The notes under the pieces are model-generated. The model saw only the letters and a list, made by a program, of their open reading frames with translations. It was not told the DNA's origin and made no database searches. A stretch of DNA of 64,000 bases from Oscillospiraceae bacterium (GTDB lineage Bacteria > Bacillota > Clostridia > Oscillospirales > Oscillospiraceae): the NCBI GenBank assembly GCA_017416685.1, contig JAFQBN010000002.1:264991-328990 (forward strand), given 5' to 3'. Both the position numbers and the translations under genes were made by a program. Shown piece by piece: positions 28,868-53,783 of the stretch; position 1 is the first letter of the stretch, and every line of letters starts with the position of its first letter.

Positions 28868-29072
28868 AAAAAATCCTCCTTCTGTGCATGGGCAGCCCAC
28901 ATCGTTGGGCGAGCCGCACAGAGGAGGTCATGCTCCGGTATGCGGCAGTGGGAACCGGTTTGCGTACTGCAAGCCAACGGCTATTCGTCCGGCGGACAGT
29001 CCCTGTTCCGCCGGCACTCAGCGCCCCAAAGGAGCGCAGCACACGCAAGCCTAAGCTGCCTGTTTCTTTGAC
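28868..29072 (-). promoter_or_regulatory. Long structured leader of folT with ribosome-binding-site-hiding hairpin
   Basis: About 205 bases of transcript precede folT and carry no gene. The part at 28875-28927 can fold so that an upstream CCTCCTCTGTGC arm pairs with the GCACAGAAGGAGG that contains the ribosome binding site; inner pairs GCCCA/TGGGC extend it. Further upstream are a GC-rich stem CCGGCGGA/TCCGCCGG (about 28991-29015) and CCGGT/ACCGG. This is the layout of a translational riboswitch or attenuator. I could not align it with the tetrahydrofolate riboswitch usually found before folT, nor with TPP, FMN or cobalamin elements. Confidence 0.55.
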
Positions 29073-45320: not shown

Positions 45321-45350
45321 AAAACCACCCTCCCGCAGGAGGGTGGTTTT
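45321..45350 (-). terminator. Terminator of the SLH/Asp-box locus
   Basis: Arms ACCACCCTCC and GGAGGGTGGT (plus flanking A/T) with a loop of a few bases, after the TIGR04076 stop. The core is the same as the hairpin at 53738-53766. Confidence 0.88.
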
Positions 45351-45362
45351 CTTCTCATTCAC

Positions 45363-45665
45363 TTAAAGCTGCTCCAGCAGGAAAACCACCGGGCGGTAGC
45401 CATCGGTGCAGCAGGTGACAAATTCCCGGTTTCCGCCCCGAGCCATGCCGTGGACAATTTTCTGCATATCAGCCCAGGCCCAGCCACAGAACCCTTCGGG
45501 CATATCCCAGGGTCTGTTGCCGTCGACCACAAAGGTATCCCCCACCTCAAAGTGTCCGCAGGGGTTCCACTTCTCCGGCTGTGCCGTGTGCTCGCGCACC
45601 AGATCCTCGTGGAACAGTTTTTTCATTACGGTGATGCGTACAGGGTGACACTTCATTTCCGCCAT
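45363..45665 (-). CDS. TIGR04076 family protein
   Basis: A 100-residue protein matching the uncharacterised TIGR04076 family: a KCHPVRITVMKKLFHEDLV start, PCGHFEVGDTF, then PEGFCGWAWADMQK and the end CCTDGYRPVVF. Conserved cysteines suggest a redox or metal site, but no function is known. The ATG at 45665 is 5 bases after the stop of the Asp-box gene and uses GGGAG inside the end of that gene. It is the last gene of the SLH-AraC-Asp-box locus and is followed by a terminator. Confidence 0.87.
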   Translation of the reverse strand: MAEMKCHPVRITVMKKLFHEDLVREHTAQPEKWNPCGHFEVGDTFVVDGNRPWDMPEGFCGWAWADMQKIVHGMARGGNREFVTCCTDGYRPVVFLLEQL

Positions 45666-45670
45666 TAGAC

Positions 45671-46741
45671 TCACTCCCGACGCAGCTTCACATAACGGAT
45701 GCCCTTCTTGCCGTTGTGGCGATACCACAGAGTGACCAGAATGGTCTCGTCGGCCAGCACCATGACGTGCGGCTCGCCAAACGCGAAGTCGATAAATTCA
45801 TCAAACTCGCCGCTGGTGCCACTCTGGGTGGTGGCAAGGGTCTGCCATACAGGCTGATTTTCCATCATGTTGAAGCCATTCTCGTCCGGCTTTGCAAGGG
45901 CCAGCCACACGCCGGTAGGCTCCTCCTTGCGCTGGTTGTAGACCACCAGCACCGTGCCGTCCTTCCACGCCTCCAGCGCGGTGGTCTGGCCGCGGAAGGG
46001 CATGGGGAACGGGCCGGAGAAGGTCTTTCCGTCATCGGAAGACAGCAGATACTGATCCGGAGCCTGCTCGTCCTTATTCTGCCAGGTGGATACCATCAGT
46101 CGACCGTCAGACAGGCGAACAATCCAGCTCTCGCCGTACTGGCAGGGCGCAGGCTGCTTGGCAAAGGCAGTGGGCGTCCAGGTCTTGCCGCCGTCGGTGC
46201 TGCGCACCATGACCAGCTGGCAGGTGTCGGTGGGCTGCTTCTGCTCGATGGTGGGATAGGGCGCGTAAATCATGGTCATGGTTCCGTCCTTATCCACCAG
46301 CATGCCGCCCGGCTGCTCGGCAGAGCCATAGAAGGGCAGCTCCACCCGCTGAGGGGGCGGGAAATTGATGCCGTCCTCGGAGATGGCGGCGGCCATGCAG
46401 TTCTCCCACATGCCGCCCACCTCGCCGGACCAGAAGGACTCTCCAAACTCGTGGATGGGGAACCACTGTCCGGCAATGGACACCCGGCCGTCCGCCGTGG
46501 TGCGCACGGAGGCAAAGATGGATTCCTGATTCACCAGTTCGGGCCAGACCGGCTTGCACTCGCTCCAGTTCTCGCCGTCCTTGGAATAGGAAACTACGGG
46601 ATAAAAGTCATTGGAGCCACCCGCCTGATGCAGGTTGAAGGAACACACAAGGGTTCCATCGGGCATGGTTGCCAGCCGCGGGCCGGCAGCAGCCAGCGTA
46701 TCGTTGACGTAAACGTCACCTTCTGCAATTTTTTTAAACAC
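45671..46741 (-). CDS. Sialidase-fold Asp-box (BNR) protein, intracellular
   Basis: A 356-residue protein with at least four Asp-box repeats (SKDGENW at 53-59, SEDGINF at 121-127, STDGGKTW at 181-188, SSDDGKTF near 225), which mark a six-bladed beta propeller. No signal peptide. The RIP-type arginine motif of true sialidases is not clear at the N-terminus (AAGPRLATMPDG), so glycan specificity is open; exo-sialidase naming is only by fold. The GTG start at 46741 has GGGAGGAAG 5 bases upstream and overlaps the AraC gene by 8 bases, showing coupled translation. Confidence 0.83.
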   Translation of the reverse strand: MFKKIAEGDVYVNDTLAAAGPRLATMPDGTLVCSFNLHQAGGSNDFYPVVSYSKDGENWSECKPVWPELVNQESIFASVRTTADGRVSIAGQWFPIHEFGESFWSGEVGGMWENCMAAAISEDGINFPPPQRVELPFYGSAEQPGGMLVDKDGTMTMIYAPYPTIEQKQPTDTCQLVMVRSTDGGKTWTPTAFAKQPAPCQYGESWIVRLSDGRLMVSTWQNKDEQAPDQYLLSSDDGKTFSGPFPMPFRGQTTALEAWKDGTVLVVYNQRKEEPTGVWLALAKPDENGFNMMENQPVWQTLATTQSGTSGEFDEFIDFAFGEPHVMVLADETILVTLWYRHNGKKGIRYVKLRRE

Positions 46742-47582
46742 GGTTCTTCCTCCCGGATTTGTTGTTATGTTTGCGTTTATCTGTAGGCGTTTCCCCGAAA
46801 TACCTCTTAAAGGCACCGGAGAACGATTCAACCGACGCATAGCCCAGTTCAGCCGCCAGCTTGACCACCGAAACATCGCTGTTTTCCAATCGATAGGCCG
46901 CCGTTTCCATGCGCATATTACTCAAAAGCGTCCGGAACGGCACATCGAAATATTTTATGCAAAGCCGGTGTACCTGTCGGGTGGACAGTCCCATTTCCCG
47001 CGCCAGCTCCTCACAGGAGCAGCGCGGGTCATACCGATGGTTGGCCAGGTAGGACGTAATGATATCCGCCCGGCCGTCATCTTCACTCTTCCCCGCCGCA
47101 GGAACCGCACTCCCGCAATAACGGGTAAAGGCCGCCAGCAATGCCAGCAGCTCCCCCTGCACCATCTCGACATAGGCCGGTTCATTCCCCAGCAATTCAC
47201 TGCGAATGCGCATCAGCCGCTGTTGCCCCTGGAACTCATCCCGAATCAGCACCGGCTCCGTGCACACGGGCAAAGCCGCGTCTTTTGCGCCGCGATCCTC
47301 AACCGCATAAAGGAACGAGATGGTCTGCACCTGTCCCCCGTCAGGCAGAATGCGGTGCTGCTGCCGGGGCGGAAGCACCAAAAAGTGTCCCTGCGGACAG
47401 GAAATCTTTCTCTCCCCTGTAATCAGCGTGCAAGTGCCGGACAGGATATAATGCACCTCATATTTCGGATGGCTGTGGGGGTACGGATCATTGGTCAGGC
47501 TGTTACAGTGAAAATCCCGGGGCAGCCGCACACCGATACGGGCTGTGCCAAACTGCAGGCTGGTATGAAACGCAGATGCCAT
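46734..47582 (-). CDS. AraC family transcriptional regulator with cupin sensor domain
   Basis: A 282-residue regulator. The N-terminal cupin (PYPHSHPKYEVHYILSGTC, then CPQGHFLVLPP) senses a small ligand; the C-terminal about 100 residues hold two helix-turn-helix units (CEELAREMGLSTRQVHRL and VKLAAELGYASVESFSGAFKRYFG). The ATG at 47582 has GGGGGAGAG upstream. Lying between the SLH surface gene and the Asp-box gene, it probably controls this locus in response to a carbohydrate or related ligand. This is inference by position. Confidence 0.9.
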   Translation of the reverse strand: MASAFHTSLQFGTARIGVRLPRDFHCNSLTNDPYPHSHPKYEVHYILSGTCTLITGERKISCPQGHFLVLPPRQQHRILPDGGQVQTISFLYAVEDRGAKDAALPVCTEPVLIRDEFQGQQRLMRIRSELLGNEPAYVEMVQGELLALLAAFTRYCGSAVPAAGKSEDDGRADIITSYLANHRYDPRCSCEELAREMGLSTRQVHRLCIKYFDVPFRTLLSNMRMETAAYRLENSDVSVVKLAAELGYASVESFSGAFKRYFGETPTDKRKHNNKSGRKNRV

Positions 47583-47610
47583 GGTCTCTCCCCCTTTCGT
47601 CGGTTGTCGC

Positions 47611-47648
47611 AAGCCACAGCAGGCCCCAAGCGGAGCCTGCTGTGGCTT
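47611..47648 (-). other. Strong hairpin between the SLH gene and araC
   Basis: 14-base perfect arms AAGCCACAGCAGGC and GCCTGCTGTGGCTT with a 10-base loop. There is no T run after it, so it is not a standard terminator. It may stabilise or separate the messages of the SLH gene and the downstream araC gene. Confidence 0.7.
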
Positions 47649-47652
47649 CGAA

Positions 47653-50600
47653 TCACTTACTCAGATACTTCATCAAGATCTGCGCTGTCTGGGCACGGGT
47701 AGCCGTTTCGGTCACGTGGATGAAGGGGATACCGTCAAACAGTCCCTGTTCCACGGCCCACTTCAAGGCATCTGCCGCCCAATCACTGTGGGCACCGATG
47801 TCGCTCAGCTCGCCGTTGCCCGCAGGCTTGCCGGAGTAGTTATGCAGGATAACGGCCACCTGTTCCAAAGTAACGGATTCGTTGGGCTTGAATACATTGC
47901 CGCCGAAGCCGCTGACCACGCTCTTGCTGGCACCCCAGGTCACCGCATTGTTGAACCACTCGGTGGCAGGCACGTCGGTAAAGTTGTTGGTGGCGCCATT
48001 CAGGTCGGGCTTGCCCTCCTTGTTGTACAGCATCTGTACCACCATGGCGCGGGACAGCTTATCATTGGGGCCGAAGGTGGTGGCGTTGTAGCCGGCCATG
48101 ATGTTGTTCTCCACGGCATACTTTGCCGCGTCATAGAACCAGTCCTCGCTCTTCACGTCCTTGAACTCGCCCAAGGTTTCCACAGGAATTTGGGTGATGA
48201 TCAGGTTGTCCACGTCGATGTGGGTGTTGATCTTTTCCCAGCCGCTGCCGATACCGCCGCTGGAGTGGAACTGGAAGCGGAAGTGGTTGACCTTGTCAAT
48301 GGGCAGACCGGGTACCTTCTCAATCTCGGTCCACGCCTCGGGTTCCGGCTGACCACGGTCCCAGATCTTTGCGTACAGCGCGTCGGCGGTACACACCATC
48401 TTCAGGGTCTTCCATCCATCTGTGACGTAGGGGCCGCGGTGCCAGATTTCGTTCATGCCCAGGCCGATGCTGCCCTCCAGGCGGTACATAGCCGCACCGG
48501 TCTGCTGGGCGGACAGATCCTTCTGGAACATGGTCATGTACAGGCTGTTTGCCATGAAGCCCTTGCCGCGGTAGTCCAACTGGACGGAGTAGGCGCCGGT
48601 GATGTCCTTGTTGACCATGACCCAGGTCGGGGCCTGTTTAAAGTCATCGTACATGCGCAGGAACTTATCGCCGTTCTCCTCCAGGATGTTGTAGCCGGTG
48701 GTGCTGCTGGATTGGGTGGCGTACACCTTGTCCGGGCCCATGTAGCTGTAGAATGCATTGTCGCCCACGGGGTAAGCAGAGAAGTCATCGGTATGGATCA
48801 CCGTCTTCTCGCCCTGGCCGGTCACTTCCTGGGGCGCGGAGGAAACGGACACGATGGTCTTGCCGCTGATGATCTCACCCGCGCTGTTGGAAATGGTGGT
48901 GGTAACCACAGCTCTGCCGGGATTATGGAAGGTAGCAACGCCTTCATTGTTCACGGTGACCACGTTAGGATCGCTGCTTGTAAAGGTCATGGTGCCCTCG
49001 GTGCTGTAGCGGTCATAGGCAATGGGGTGGCTGCCGTCGGCGGCGGAGGCGGCAACGCTCTCCTCCACTTTCAGCTTGGCAGGAATTTTGGCAACCAGGT
49101 TGTTGATCTTGATGCTGCCATTCAGCGCAACGATGGACGCCGCCTTGGTGCAATCCTGATCCAGATGGTCGGTACACCAGATAGCCCAATCAGGCTCTTG
49201 GGCTCCGTCCGCCCAAATCTTGCCCCAAATCATTCTTCCCACATAGGCCAGCTGCACGTTGTATCTCTTGTTGGTGGCAAGGGTCATCTCCTTCACACAG
49301 GTATTCTCCAGACAGGTGATACCCTTGGTGCTGAACTTCACGCCAATACCCTGACGCATCCGCACCTCTGCCACGGAGGAGGCATTGTCCAAAGACAGGT
49401 CAAACTCCATGATGTAGCTGCTGTCTGGAATCTTGTCCGCAGGGGCCCGCCAGGTCTTGATCACCGCAGACAAATTCTTCTTCTCCAGAGTGAACTGAGG
49501 CACATAGTGTTCCGCCTTAAGAATATTAGGCCAGAACTCAGGGCTGTTGGGATCATCCCACACGCCCACGATGCTGCGCAGGGAGGTTTCATACATGATG
49601 GTAAGCACTCTGCCGTCGTCCAGGTAGGCGCAGGAGGGGTCGGCGCAGTCCTGCTCCACCCCCTGCCCATGCTTGATGGGCGCATAAATCAAGGAAGTCT
49701 CGCTCTCCTCCCAGCCGGCGTTCAGGTAGAACACCTTGCCCCAGGAGGGACGGCCCTCACCGTTTGCCAGCTTGCCGGTGGCCCAGGTGGTGAAGGCACG
49801 GTTGGAGTCGATCAGCGTCATCTGAGGCTGCAGAACGCCGGTAACCTCGTTATCAATCAGCTCCCACGTTCTGCCGCGGTCACGGGTAATCACCACCATA
49901 CCGCTGCTTCGGGCAAAGCCGTAAACCAGCTTGTCGGTGCCGTCGGGGGTCAGCAGGGAGAATTCGTTGAATTCCTCACCGATGGAAACGGTGTCGCCTT
50001 CGGGAGCCAGATTGGGAACCTGTCGGGCATCCTCCACGGGATCCCACTCCCAGCGCTGAATCTCGGGATTGAACTTCAGATCATACACGTGGACGTTTTC
50101 CACACCGCTGTAAGTAGGCAGCAAAATGGTGCCGTCATTAAACTGCACGCCGTCGCCGCGCTTGTTGTCGCCGCTGAGGTACTGGAAGTCGGCCCAGCGC
50201 TTGCCGGGTTCCCCGGCCATCCAGCCGGCCAGATCGTCCACGGCAATCCAGGTCAGCCACACCTGGGCATCGTACCCGCCGTTGTGGTACAGGCGGAAGG
50301 TGCCGGTGTGCAGCAGGGCGTCCTCCATCTCGCCGTCATTGTCCAGATCCATCTTGACGGGCATCAGGTCGCTGTCGCCGGACATACCGGCTACAACGTA
50401 GTCGTTGTTGGGCAGCTGGACTTTCAGCAGCTCGTAGCGATTGAAGGCACTGCCCATGCCGGGGGCATTCATTTCCTCCACGGCGGTGCGGGTATCGTAG
50501 AACTCACGGACGGTCCAGGTTTCGCCGTTGTCCTCGCTGATGGCGAAGTGGGGGCCGTAGTTGCCCATGATGGGGTAAGTAAAGTTACCGCTGTGGATGG

Positions 50601-53568
50601 GGGCGTCGATATAGGTGGCCACCAGACGGCCGTCGGGCAGCTTCTTCAGATCGGGGAAGCGCAGCGCGGAGGGAGCGTTCACCTGATCCACGGTGACCAC
50701 GCCGTCCCGGGTGTCACGCTGAACCTTGGGGGCATCCAGCTGGGTCAGCTCCTTATCCGCCATGTCAGCGAAGGCGGCCTTGACCGCAGCCACAATCTTG
50801 GGCAGCTCGGAAGGCTTATAATCCTTGTCGGGATACTGAGCCACGCCGTCCACCAGGAAGTTGACGTTGCCCTCGTTCAGCAGGGACAGATCGGGGGTAT
50901 AGCCGGCCTCCAGGCACAGGCTGTTAAAGAGGGTCACACCCGCCACCAGACGGCCGGTCTTATTGGTCAGACGATCCTTGTCACGGGTCAGGTCGCGACC
51001 CAGAGCGGTGCGCAGGTTCTGCACCGCCACGCCGGTGGGCACCACGCCGTCGACCCAGTCGCCGTTCAGGATGTAGCGGTTGGTACAGTAGACAATGGCG
51101 TTGTAATGCCACAGGCTGTTTTCCTGATAGTCGGCCTGATCCCGGGCAAAGGGCACGTCATAGGGGTCATAGCCGTCGGCAAAGGACCACGCAACGGGCC
51201 AGTAGAACTTGGCACCGGGTTCCTCGCCGTGGATATAGTCGGACATATACTTCAGGTCGGTGCTGTATGCGGTATCATAACCGGCCAGATAGTTCTGGTT
51301 GCCGACGGAGATGACATCCCACTCCTCGGCATCGATCATCTCGGAAATGGTGACCTTGTCGCGGCTCTTGACCAGGTTGCCACTTGCGTCTGTGGTGTAC
51401 AGGGCATAGGCGGCCACATCGTTGACGGCATTTTTCGCGTGGCTCTCTATGGAGATACCGGAAACGTGCAGCACAGCGATGTCGAAATTCACCTCGGGGT
51501 ACAGCAGATCCAGCTTTTTCAGATAGAAGGCGGTATCCACGGCGTAGTCATCACCGATGGCCAGATACTTCACGTTCTTGACCGCTTTACCCACCTGAAT
51601 GGTGACAGAGTCGGTGATCGCCTTGCCTCTGTCGGTCCATGTGGCGGTAATCTTAGCCACGCCGCGGCTCTTGCAGGTCACCTTGCCGCTTGCGTCCACC
51701 GTGGCCACGATGGGGTCGGCACTGGCCCACTTGACGCCGGAAACCGCGCGGGTCATGGCCAGGGGCACGGTGTCACCCACGTTGTACTGCTTGGCGGCAG
51801 CGGTGGGGTCGATACCCGTGGCATCGGCGGTCACTTCGCAGGAGGCAGCCAAATTGGTTGTACCGTCTGCATGGGTCAGCTTGGCCGTAACGGTGGCCTT
51901 GCCCGGCTTCACGGCGTAGGCCACGCCGTCCTCCACCCGGATGACGGAGGGATCACTGCTCTCCCAGGTGTAGGCAGGCTCCACCATACCAACGCCAGTC
52001 AGCACAGGTGTCAGCTTCGTGCCGGCCTTGTCGGCGGTGGCGTTGGCCATGGTCAACCCGACGCCGGTGGTACGCATCTGAATGTTATCCAGATACACGG
52101 TATACTCCCGGCCGGCCTGGTTGCGGGCGCGGCTCATAAAGCGCACCTGGGTGCCGGTTTTCAGGAAGGCATCGTCAAAGGTGTCACTCTTGAACACGCT
52201 CACACCTTTGCCGGAGTCGGCGGCAGGCTCCTGCTGGCCACGGGGCCACATCTTGACCAGCAGTTGCCCCTTGCTCAGGGCAAGCTTGAAGGAGTACCAA
52301 GTGTCATAATCCGGACTGAACCCCATGCCGATATCGTTCTTCATGGTGATTTCGCCGGCGGGAGTGACAAGGCGTACGGGGTTCTTGGCATCGATATACA
52401 CCATGATTTTCTCGTCATTGTTGCCATGGAGGATATCGAAGATCATGCCGGGAACCGAACTGCCAATCGGCTTTTTAAACTTCAGATCCAGGGAAAGGGT
52501 CCTCTCGCCGGCCACCTTGTCCCGGGACAGGAACCAGTTGTAGGTCTTGTTCTCGCTGACCAGCTCCAGCACCTTGTTGCCGCTGTCTTCCACAATATTG
52601 TAGAGGGCATAGGAGCCAAGGACACGGCTGCTGTGGCAGGAGGCGGTCCAATCGGTGTAGTAGCGGCTGCGCCAGAAGGTGTCCTCCCCCACAGGATAGA
52701 CACTCATGTCATCGGAAAAGACCACATCGCCCTTGGGCGGCTCGTTTGCATCGATTTTCTCCACGCTGCCGGCCGCACCGCCGGAACCGGCCACCTTCGT
52801 GCCGGTCAGGCGCACATTGTCCAGGCGGGTGGTATACGCCTCGCCGGCACGGTTGCGGCTACGGTTCATAATACGCACGGTGCTGGTGCTGGTGATGGCC
52901 GCATCACCCAATGCGTCGCTTTCCAGCACGCATACGCCGGCAATATCGTCGTCAGCAGGCTCCGTCTGCCCCTTGAGCCACATTTTGAGGATCATCTGAC
53001 CCTCGGTCAGGCTAATCTCCAGCGAATACCAGGTGTCATAATTCGGAGCAAAGTTCTCCCCATAGGCATTCTTCATATAAATTGTCTGGCCGGCGCCGGT
53101 CAGTCGCACATCGCTCTTGGCATCGATGTAGACCAAAGTTGCGCCGCCGGGCACCGAGTAGCCGTGCAGCAGATCAAACACAGCGCCGGACACGGACTCG
53201 CCGCTGGGCTGAGGGAACTTTATATCTACGCTGAACGTACGCTCCCCGGTGACCTTGGCCGCGGTAGCGCACCAGTTGAAGGTTTCGTTCACACTGGTCA
53301 GCTCCAGCACCTTGTTCCCGCCTTCGTCCGCAATGCCATAGGTGGCATAGCTGGCGTCATTGGGGGTGTTATGGAGCGACTGGGAAAATTCGGTGTAGTA
53401 CGGGCTTTGCCAGAATGTATCAGCACCCACGGGATAGAGGCTGAAATCGTCGGCAAACACCTCGTCCTGCTTGGCTGCGACAGAAATCGTCATGGCAGGC
53501 ACCATGCCGATACACATCACAACCGCTAACAGCAGAGATAGGGTTCTCTTCCATGCGGTTTGTTTCAT
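47653..53568 (-). CDS. Giant secreted SLH-anchored multidomain protein with sialidase-fold and SGNH-like domains
   Basis: 1971 residues. Signal peptide about 1-32, probably cut after VAA. Two related lectin-like modules at about 37-256 and 282-498, two bacterial Ig-like (Big2) domains at about 505-660, an SGNH-hydrolase-like domain of DUF4886 type at 664-885, a sialidase-type propeller at about 945-1340 with an LRFPDLKKLPDG arginine motif and Asp boxes SEDNGETW and TRDRGRTW, a third module at about 1355-1495, a third Ig-like domain (1500-1575), a fourth module (1590-1795), and three SLH repeats at 1801-1850, 1862-1912 and 1921-1970. SLH repeats bind secondary wall polymers, so the protein is on the cell surface. 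Good spacing of AAAGGAGG before the ATG. Substrate unknown; a host or microbial glycan is likely. Confidence 0.92.
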   Translation of the reverse strand: MKQTAWKRTLSLLLAVVMCIGMVPAMTISVAAKQDEVFADDFSLYPVGADTFWQSPYYTEFSQSLHNTPNDASYATYGIADEGGNKVLELTSVNETFNWCATAAKVTGERTFSVDIKFPQPSGESVSGAVFDLLHGYSVPGGATLVYIDAKSDVRLTGAGQTIYMKNAYGENFAPNYDTWYSLEISLTEGQMILKMWLKGQTEPADDDIAGVCVLESDALGDAAITSTSTVRIMNRSRNRAGEAYTTRLDNVRLTGTKVAGSGGAAGSVEKIDANEPPKGDVVFSDDMSVYPVGEDTFWRSRYYTDWTASCHSSRVLGSYALYNIVEDSGNKVLELVSENKTYNWFLSRDKVAGERTLSLDLKFKKPIGSSVPGMIFDILHGNNDEKIMVYIDAKNPVRLVTPAGEITMKNDIGMGFSPDYDTWYSFKLALSKGQLLVKMWPRGQQEPAADSGKGVSVFKSDTFDDAFLKTGTQVRFMSRARNQAGREYTVYLDNIQMRTTGVGLTMANATADKAGTKLTPVLTGVGMVEPAYTWESSDPSVIRVEDGVAYAVKPGKATVTAKLTHADGTTNLAASCEVTADATGIDPTAAAKQYNVGDTVPLAMTRAVSGVKWASADPIVATVDASGKVTCKSRGVAKITATWTDRGKAITDSVTIQVGKAVKNVKYLAIGDDYAVDTAFYLKKLDLLYPEVNFDIAVLHVSGISIESHAKNAVNDVAAYALYTTDASGNLVKSRDKVTISEMIDAEEWDVISVGNQNYLAGYDTAYSTDLKYMSDYIHGEEPGAKFYWPVAWSFADGYDPYDVPFARDQADYQENSLWHYNAIVYCTNRYILNGDWVDGVVPTGVAVQNLRTALGRDLTRDKDRLTNKTGRLVAGVTLFNSLCLEAGYTPDLSLLNEGNVNFLVDGVAQYPDKDYKPSELPKIVAAVKAAFADMADKELTQLDAPKVQRDTRDGVVTVDQVNAPSALRFPDLKKLPDGRLVATYIDAPIHSGNFTYPIMGNYGPHFAISEDNGETWTVREFYDTRTAVEEMNAPGMGSAFNRYELLKVQLPNNDYVVAGMSGDSDLMPVKMDLDNDGEMEDALLHTGTFRLYHNGGYDAQVWLTWIAVDDLAGWMAGEPGKRWADFQYLSGDNKRGDGVQFNDGTILLPTYSGVENVHVYDLKFNPEIQRWEWDPVEDARQVPNLAPEGDTVSIGEEFNEFSLLTPDGTDKLVYGFARSSGMVVITRDRGRTWELIDNEVTGVLQPQMTLIDSNRAFTTWATGKLANGEGRPSWGKVFYLNAGWEESETSLIYAPIKHGQGVEQDCADPSCAYLDDGRVLTIMYETSLRSIVGVWDDPNSPEFWPNILKAEHYVPQFTLEKKNLSAVIKTWRAPADKIPDSSYIMEFDLSLDNASSVAEVRMRQGIGVKFSTKGITCLENTCVKEMTLATNKRYNVQLAYVGRMIWGKIWADGAQEPDWAIWCTDHLDQDCTKAASIVALNGSIKINNLVAKIPAKLKVEESVAASAADGSHPIAYDRYSTEGTMTFTSSDPNVVTVNNEGVATFHNPGRAVVTTTISNSAGEIISGKTIVSVSSAPQEVTGQGEKTVIHTDDFSAYPVGDNAFYSYMGPDKVYATQSSSTTGYNILEENGDKFLRMYDDFKQAPTWVMVNKDITGAYSVQLDYRGKGFMANSLYMTMFQKDLSAQQTGAAMYRLEGSIGLGMNEIWHRGPYVTDGWKTLKMVCTADALYAKIWDRGQPEPEAWTEIEKVPGLPIDKVNHFRFQFHSSGGIGSGWEKINTHIDVDNLIITQIPVETLGEFKDVKSEDWFYDAAKYAVENNIMAGYNATTFGPNDKLSRAMVVQMLYNKEGKPDLNGATNNFTDVPATEWFNNAVTWGASKSVVSGFGGNVFKPNESVTLEQVAVILHNYSGKPAGNGELSDIGAHSDWAADALKWAVEQGLFDGIPFIHVTETATRAQTAQILMKYLSK

Positions 53569-53588
53569 GTCGGTTCCTCCTTTTACAC

Positions 53589-53645: not shown

Positions 53646-53737
53646 TGGAATACTTTCAGCCGACCACTTTCTTCCAAAAATGTCCGATAGTATTAGGTTA
53701 TCTTACCATACGGTCGCCTTCCCCGCAAGAAAAAAAG

Positions 53738-53766
53738 GAAACCACCCTCCCGCAGGAGGGTGGTTT
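53738..53766 (-). terminator. Terminator of the DUF512-der-plsY-gpsA operon
   Basis: Same hairpin core as 45321-45350 (arms ACCACCCTCC / GGAGGGTGGT), then a TTTCCTTTTTT tract on the minus strand, after gpsA. Confidence 0.88.
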
Positions 53767-53783
53767 TTATACATATTTTTCGT

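Follow-up and report, generated by a model that had tools for sequence, protein, structure and literature searches.

Four closely spaced minus-strand genes of an Oscillospiraceae bacterium raise the question of whether a giant surface protein and its three neighbours form one system and, if so, on which sugar that system acts. The genes lie in a window of 64,000 nucleotides, by which we mean the whole stretch analyzed (positions 264,991 to 328,990 of contig JAFQBN010000002.1, GenBank assembly GCA_017416685.1), and encode, in this order on the minus strand, a giant SLH-anchored protein, an AraC-family regulator, a cytosolic sialidase-like propeller and a small protein of the TIGR04076 family. 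Profile matches confirmed all four genes in the order given by the original prediction, which proposed a surface system that binds or cuts a glycan together with an intracellular partner. The four-gene cassette is real and relocatable, and most likely devoted to a carbohydrate. Our preferred reading, held tentatively and short of calling it probable, is that of a putative cassette resembling a polysaccharide utilization locus (PUL), without a transporter, that would serve a non-sialic glycan; the cassette itself has moved as one block among related Oscillospiraceae.

The evidence for a unit comes from comparison of the assembly containing the window (G000, a small genome of 1.86 Mb) with two relatives, G226 and G248, the latter a second species of the genus. 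Positions 45362–53581 of the window produce a single match of 8252 bp at 86% identity in G248 (record SVLO01000013.1; locus L078, which carries the second copy of the block), with unrelated flanks on either side. Near the block, the only match outside the four genes is a 42-bp upstream piece; three extra matches of 45–89 bp pair the window at 36.2–36.3 kb with an unrelated part of the G248 contig. The genes that flank the cassette in the window, gpsA and smc, are separated by about 200 bp, without the cassette, in both G226 and G248, and, reciprocally, the neighbourhood of the G248 cassette exists in G000 without the cassette, with another ORF (DegV-like by eye) located there. Given these reciprocal empty sites and the shared ends, the four genes therefore sit as a unit at two chromosomal places. 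Of 9 genomes searched, these two showed the gpsA–smc adjacency, the stretches from the other 7 containing no smc and being uninformative on the empty site. In the genus sample of 61 genomes, the set of four is carried by two, and only with the direct SLH orthologue. The ratio of nonsynonymous to synonymous substitution rates (dN/dS), calculated between G000 and G248 for each gene and for seven regions of the giant gene, is 0.058 for the TIGR04076 gene, 0.042 for the cytosolic propeller, 0.231 for AraC and 0.162 for the giant protein, values that indicate purifying selection on each gene. Because the block recurs at this level of DNA identity between unrelated flanks, with dN/dS in the range of 0.04–0.23, it is more than a chance juxtaposition.

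In the window the cassette is bracketed by two copies of an exact direct repeat made of the gpsA terminator (Table 1), and the empty site of G226 holds one variant copy, an arrangement suggestive of either target duplication or recombination at that terminator. The 26-bp core of the repeat, with up to 2 mismatches allowed, occurs nowhere in the assembly other than at these two places, which excludes a dispersed repeat as the source of the flanking terminator. No transposase was noticed with the cassette, and a phage or plasmid origin was rejected, the cytosolic propeller having no relative in the plasmids or viral contigs searched.

Table 1. Features of the four-gene cassette and its borders, in window coordinates
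Feature	Position	Strand	Details
Direct repeat, right copy	45322..45350	-	29 bp, exact; terminator hairpin
TIGR04076 small Cys-containing protein	45363..45665	-	100 aa; NCBIfam TIGR04076 57.1 bits vs cut-off 33
Cytosolic sialidase-like propeller (BNR_2, Asp-box)	45671..46741	-	356 aa; Pfam BNR_2 35.7 bits vs 31.4
AraC-family regulator, cupin-type sensor domain	46734..47582	-	HTH_18 71.3, AraC_binding 39.5, Cupin_2 27.8 bits
Intercistronic hairpin, SLH gene/araC	47611..47648	-	17-bp stem, no U-run
Giant secreted SLH-anchored protein	47653..53568	-	1971 aa; Pfam: three SLH stretches 88.1 bits, DUF4886 105.7 vs cut-off 26.7, Big_2 40.1
Conserved upstream element	53654..53685	-	32 bp; 28/32 identical in G248
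Direct repeat, left copy	53739..53767	-	29 bp, exact; gpsA terminator

Within the cassette the genes are tightly packed. With refined starts, the propeller gene begins at GTG 46741, preceded by a GGAGGA-type ribosome site, and overlaps the end of araC by about 8 nt, so the overlap noted in the original prediction is real; the TIGR04076 gene begins at ATG 45665, 5 nt past the propeller stop, and araC probably starts at ATG 47582. Between G000 and G248, conservation is strongest in the cytosolic propeller and the TIGR04076 protein and weakest in AraC (71% amino acid identity). Upstream of the giant gene, the 32-bp element stands out in a leader that has otherwise diverged between the two cassettes; with up to 8 mismatches allowed, only two copies occur in 514 kb of G000, G226 and G248 sequence (overlaps counted), making it a candidate promoter/operator of the cassette's own. 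For the stretch that contains the SLH–araC hairpin, the folding energy is -41.9 kcal/mol in the window and -45.8 kcal/mol in L078, where 17 of 17 pairs are kept and 2 are changed on both sides, a covariation that is suggestive only, with two sequences and 131 of 500 shuffles scoring as high. This hairpin may dampen read-through into araC. A long 3' hairpin within 75 nt was seen by eye in 16 of the 17 giant SLH genes checked in G000, G226 and G248, and several of these share similar CCCCGCAGTCC stems.

The question of the substrate was addressed by comparing the active sites of the propellers with solved sialidases by alignment (A1 and A7 for the cytosolic propellers, A4 for the SLH propeller, A5 for DUF4886/SGNH). 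The cytosolic propeller, in which six blades were counted and no signal peptide was visible (both by eye), is, as the original prediction had it, an Asp-box propeller (Table 1) and belongs to the sialidase superfamily by sequence, with matches to solved sialidases at E 0.00034 (A1) and 9.5e-18 (A7). The blade-4 Glu (E204) and blade-5 Arg (R271) are kept in all nine aligned cytosolic propellers. The alignment column corresponding to the Tyr nucleophile of sialidases, anchored to the tyrosine motif of the solved sialidase through a propeller from another G000 contig (C34) by a weak local alignment, holds Glu (E323) in 4 of 4 close cytosolic propellers and Tyr in both C34 propellers; of the remaining three relatives, two have Gln there and one has Ala. 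The second Arg of the triad is absent from the close group, being T219 by column or W220 when counting 16 residues from E204, the distance at which both C34 propellers carry Arg; the first-blade Arg is off the expected column by hand mapping, and R22, a candidate for this position, was dropped, as A7 places that column at A19. The arginine comparison with GH33 recommended in the original prediction accordingly ended negatively for the cytosolic propeller, which has neither the Tyr–Glu pair of the GH33 nucleophile nor the full arginine triad. According to the part of PMC4747158 used here, the Tyr nucleophile, which is paired with Glu, relates to the charge that sialic acid carries, and the three arginines to the carboxylate of this sugar. 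As both the Tyr nucleophile and the second triad Arg are lost, a substrate other than sialic acid is therefore argued for, in line with the earlier suggestion of a different sugar; E323 and the missing Arg would fit an uncharged or aldose-type substrate better than sialic acid. The features shared with GH33 are the Asp-box propeller sequence, the blade-4 Glu and the blade-5 Arg, whereas the Tyr column is Glu inside the cell and, as deduced for the SLH propeller, Asp outside, and the cytosolic second triad Arg is absent. The best solved match of the cytosolic group is an uncharacterized propeller, Dfer_1899 (5hx0; A7 E 3.1e-21), whose record title names no function and which has Tyr where the window propeller has Glu.

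The giant protein consists, from the N-terminus, of lectin-like repeats (by eye), a Big domain, DUF4886 (residues 667–885), the propeller (about 947–1354), a Big/lectin-like part and three SLH stretches, and its hydrophobic N-terminus was read by eye as a signal sequence. Thus, of the protein described in the original prediction, secretion and the three SLH stretches stand, whereas its propeller falls below the Pfam cut-off and its lectin-like modules are plausible by eye, no Pfam lectin family having matched in the protein; DUF4886 had gone unnamed. In the A4 alignment, whose family profile matches the best solved sialidase at E 0.0041, all 12 SLH propellers carry E256, R274 and R327, and 7 of the 12 also have the blade-1 Arg; the residue at the Tyr column appears to be D364 in all 12, by motif mapping in a domain that itself scores under the Pfam threshold. 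DUF4886 (PF16227) is described, in the portion of PMC9487903 considered here, as an SGNH family without a member of known function. The A5 profile matches its solved example, 4i8i, at E 6.4e-39, and the GNS motif with an intact DxxH is found in 5 of the 12 aligned proteins, whereas the Ser nucleophile is gone in the other 7 and the window domain has lost both the nucleophile and the His of the catalytic set. Where the window protein has GDD and DKDR, its G248 orthologue has GDD and DKDH, a trio of the C8 type has GGT and DSDH, and two more have GNG or GND. Although dead by motif, the SGNH region has a dN/dS of 0.076, below that of each of the other six regions compared. Synonymous divergence (dS) is uneven along the giant gene, 0.19–0.75 by region between the window and L078, which suggests mosaic exchange between alleles or paralogues.

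This protein is one of many of its kind. Thirteen giant SLH genes were counted in G000 (contigs C1, C8, C12, C24, C27 and C28; loci L043–L052), amounting to about 24,500 residues or about 4% of 1.86 Mb. They fall into two architectures: five, one of them truncated where its contig stops, are of the DUF4886 type seen in the window and eight are of a second type, one of which was scanned by Pfam and matched BNR_2 (44.4 bits) and LamG, all eight aligning over the BNR_2 region. Full-length proteins of the second type are present, among the matches listed (about 7 candidates scored per genome), in G000, G226 and G248, and a DUF4886-type giant occurs in 3 of the 61 genus-sample genomes. Of the 13 giants, 8 have an AraC-like gene next to them (within 420 bp) and 10 have one within 5 kb; the eight adjacencies involve six AraC genes, two of them each common to two giants, and 17 AraC-like genes were present in the 358 kb examined, a sample enriched for giant SLH loci. 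Genes for GH116 (by Pfam in G226, by eye in G248), GH20C, GH78, GDSL and Gfo/Idh proteins lie no more than 2.5 kb from some other giants, and an FGGY kinase gene is found about 7.5 kb from another. The giant family as a whole is not tied to the partners found in the window; such a tie holds for this orthologue alone, in both of the genomes that have it.

A close relative of the cytosolic propeller occurs in 2 of the 61 genus genomes, and relatives were found in 2 of the 200 family genomes (one distant) and in 4 of the 391 class genomes (three distant). Contig C34 of G000 (L057 6448–8886) holds two tandem cytosolic sialidase-like propellers that keep the Tyr and a triad Arg, in a cluster with an HpcH/HpaI aldolase, an MFS protein, AraC and a class-III aminotransferase. 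Elsewhere, the neighbours are Amidohydro_2, an N-acyltransferase and C_GCAxxG_C_C on L080; AraC, Amidohydro_2 and Gfo/Idh in G531, with G617 alike by eye; a DHDPS-family aldolase, an FGGY kinase, a NagA-like protein and a GH29 alpha-L-fucosidase in G123; and only a lipoprotein-like ORF on the 3.8-kb L079. By eye, the stretch around the G267 propeller holds no clear sugar set. The second TIGR04076 gene of the genome (L058 1692–5800, contig C32) lies beside Amidohydro_2, a GNAT_C protein and AraC. The similar sugar-type company of the propellers and of this second TIGR04076 gene therefore supports a catabolic role, the sugar being unnamed. The TIGR04076 protein has no solved relative (best E 0.12); a family member in the Bilophila isethionate cluster is described as potentially redox or iron-cluster related in the section of PMC8667426 drawn on here, and it belongs to the same small family but to an isethionate-desulfonation context, not, in that section, to a glycan locus.

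Combining these observations, the giant SLH protein on the wall would capture, and perhaps trim, a glycan or glycoside by means of its lectin-like modules and propeller, with the SGNH domain, its serine chemistry lost, probably binding only. A small product would be imported by a transporter encoded elsewhere, the AraC cupin domain would sense it and drive the cassette, and the cytosolic propeller, judging from the neighbours of its relatives, would act on it; the TIGR04076 protein might be an accessory, perhaps redox or metal-binding. A more specific version, which we consider rather improbable, holds that in both propellers a carboxylate has taken the place of the Tyr nucleophile (Glu in the cytosolic one, Asp in the outer one) and the triad has loosened. 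The two would then be retaining glycosidases of an unclassified kind, acting on a sugar with no anomeric carboxylate, coupled to a dead SGNH domain retained for binding and controlled by an AraC and an operator that belong to the cassette. The closest known arrangement is the Gram-positive PUL (gpPUL) of Roseburia and E. rectale, the definition of which, in the excerpt of PMC5320581 relied on here, takes in a transport system, a regulator and at least one polysaccharide-degrading enzyme. The cassette is alike in linking a surface protein, an intracellular candidate enzyme and an AraC-type regulator, a layout with parallels at several other giant SLH genes; unlike a gpPUL so defined, it has no transporter, so it falls outside the definition, it moves as a four-gene block, and no member has a clear polysaccharide-degrading activity, the propellers being known from their sequences. 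We found no description of this gene set among the open-licence papers listed by our searches.

Several points weigh against the glycan-cassette reading. SLH homologues are found without the other three genes, and propeller relatives of 49–54% identity lie on short contigs (L079 and L080) with no SLH gene adjacent; the distant propeller relatives share 21–24% identity, and their neighbours may not predict the role of the window propeller. No transporter is among the four cassette genes, which are bounded by gpsA and smc. With two carrier genomes, co-selection rests on one comparison and the relocation. The strong hairpin may split expression between the SLH gene and araC. The propeller of the giant protein scores 18.7 against a BNR cut-off of 27, and BNR_2 in related giant genes scores 22.7–27.3 against 31.4; the active sites were mapped from sequence, in which repeated blades may shift the register, and HMMER propeller alignments were partly one blade off. 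One alternative is that two neighbours merely travel together, an ordinary surface gene of the family and an independent cytosolic araC–propeller–TIGR04076 sugar operon, as the separate occurrence of SLH and propeller relatives, the hairpin between the SLH gene and araC, and the divergent rather than downstream orientation of AraC at 5 of the 7 other giants with an adjacent AraC would lead one to expect. However, the four genes stay together through relocation and the shared upstream element is placed ahead of the SLH gene, with which the set begins, and we regard this explanation as possible but on the unlikely side. The original prediction took regular occurrence of SLH homologues without the other three genes as grounds for abandoning a system: at the family level SLH and propeller relatives are indeed found apart, whereas the direct orthologue keeps the set in both of its carriers, so that what survives is a unit conserved at two sites, not an exclusive system.

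The remaining alternatives concern what the proteins do. If both propellers were dead lectins, the outer one would attach the cell to a glycan and the inner one would be a ligand-binding partner of AraC; the lost SGNH nucleophile, the non-Tyr residues in the Tyr column of both propellers and the lectin-like modules are consistent with such an adhesin and sensor, but the blade-4 Glu and blade-5 Arg are kept as in an active site in every aligned cytosolic and SLH propeller, and catabolic genes surround some of the cytosolic propellers found elsewhere; we hold this reading to be quite unlikely. A sialic acid system, with a surface sialidase and esterase and a cytosolic sialidase, could be drawn from the superfamily assignment and from the one distant propeller whose neighbours include a DHDPS-family aldolase and a NagA-like protein. 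Against it stand the acidic residues in the Tyr column (for the SLH propeller, by motif mapping), the missing cytosolic Arg, the lost SGNH nucleophile and the housing of the block between gpsA and smc; on the active-site columns it was dropped as the leading interpretation and is now highly improbable. Very little probability is likewise assigned to the view that the cassette is one of many exchangeable surface-protein genes, with relocation and mosaicism as means of varying antigens or phage receptors: thirteen giant genes, the relocation and the uneven dS would suit it, yet conservation is highest in the genes for the cytosolic propeller and TIGR04076, which would be odd for such a cassette.

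Should the glycan-cassette reading be true, the locus would offer a testable case of a sialidase fold shifted to a new sugar by a changed nucleophile, and a relocatable Gram-positive glycan locus with a giant SLH surface part and no linked transporter. It points to a small-genome Oscillospiraceae lineage that devotes about 4% of its genome to giant SLH proteins, and draws attention to DUF4886, a domain of no known function, in the five relatives that keep the catalytic residues. Elsewhere in the window, a tetrahydrofolate (THF) riboswitch was detected on the minus strand at 28944–29060 (52.7 bits against a gathering score of 36).

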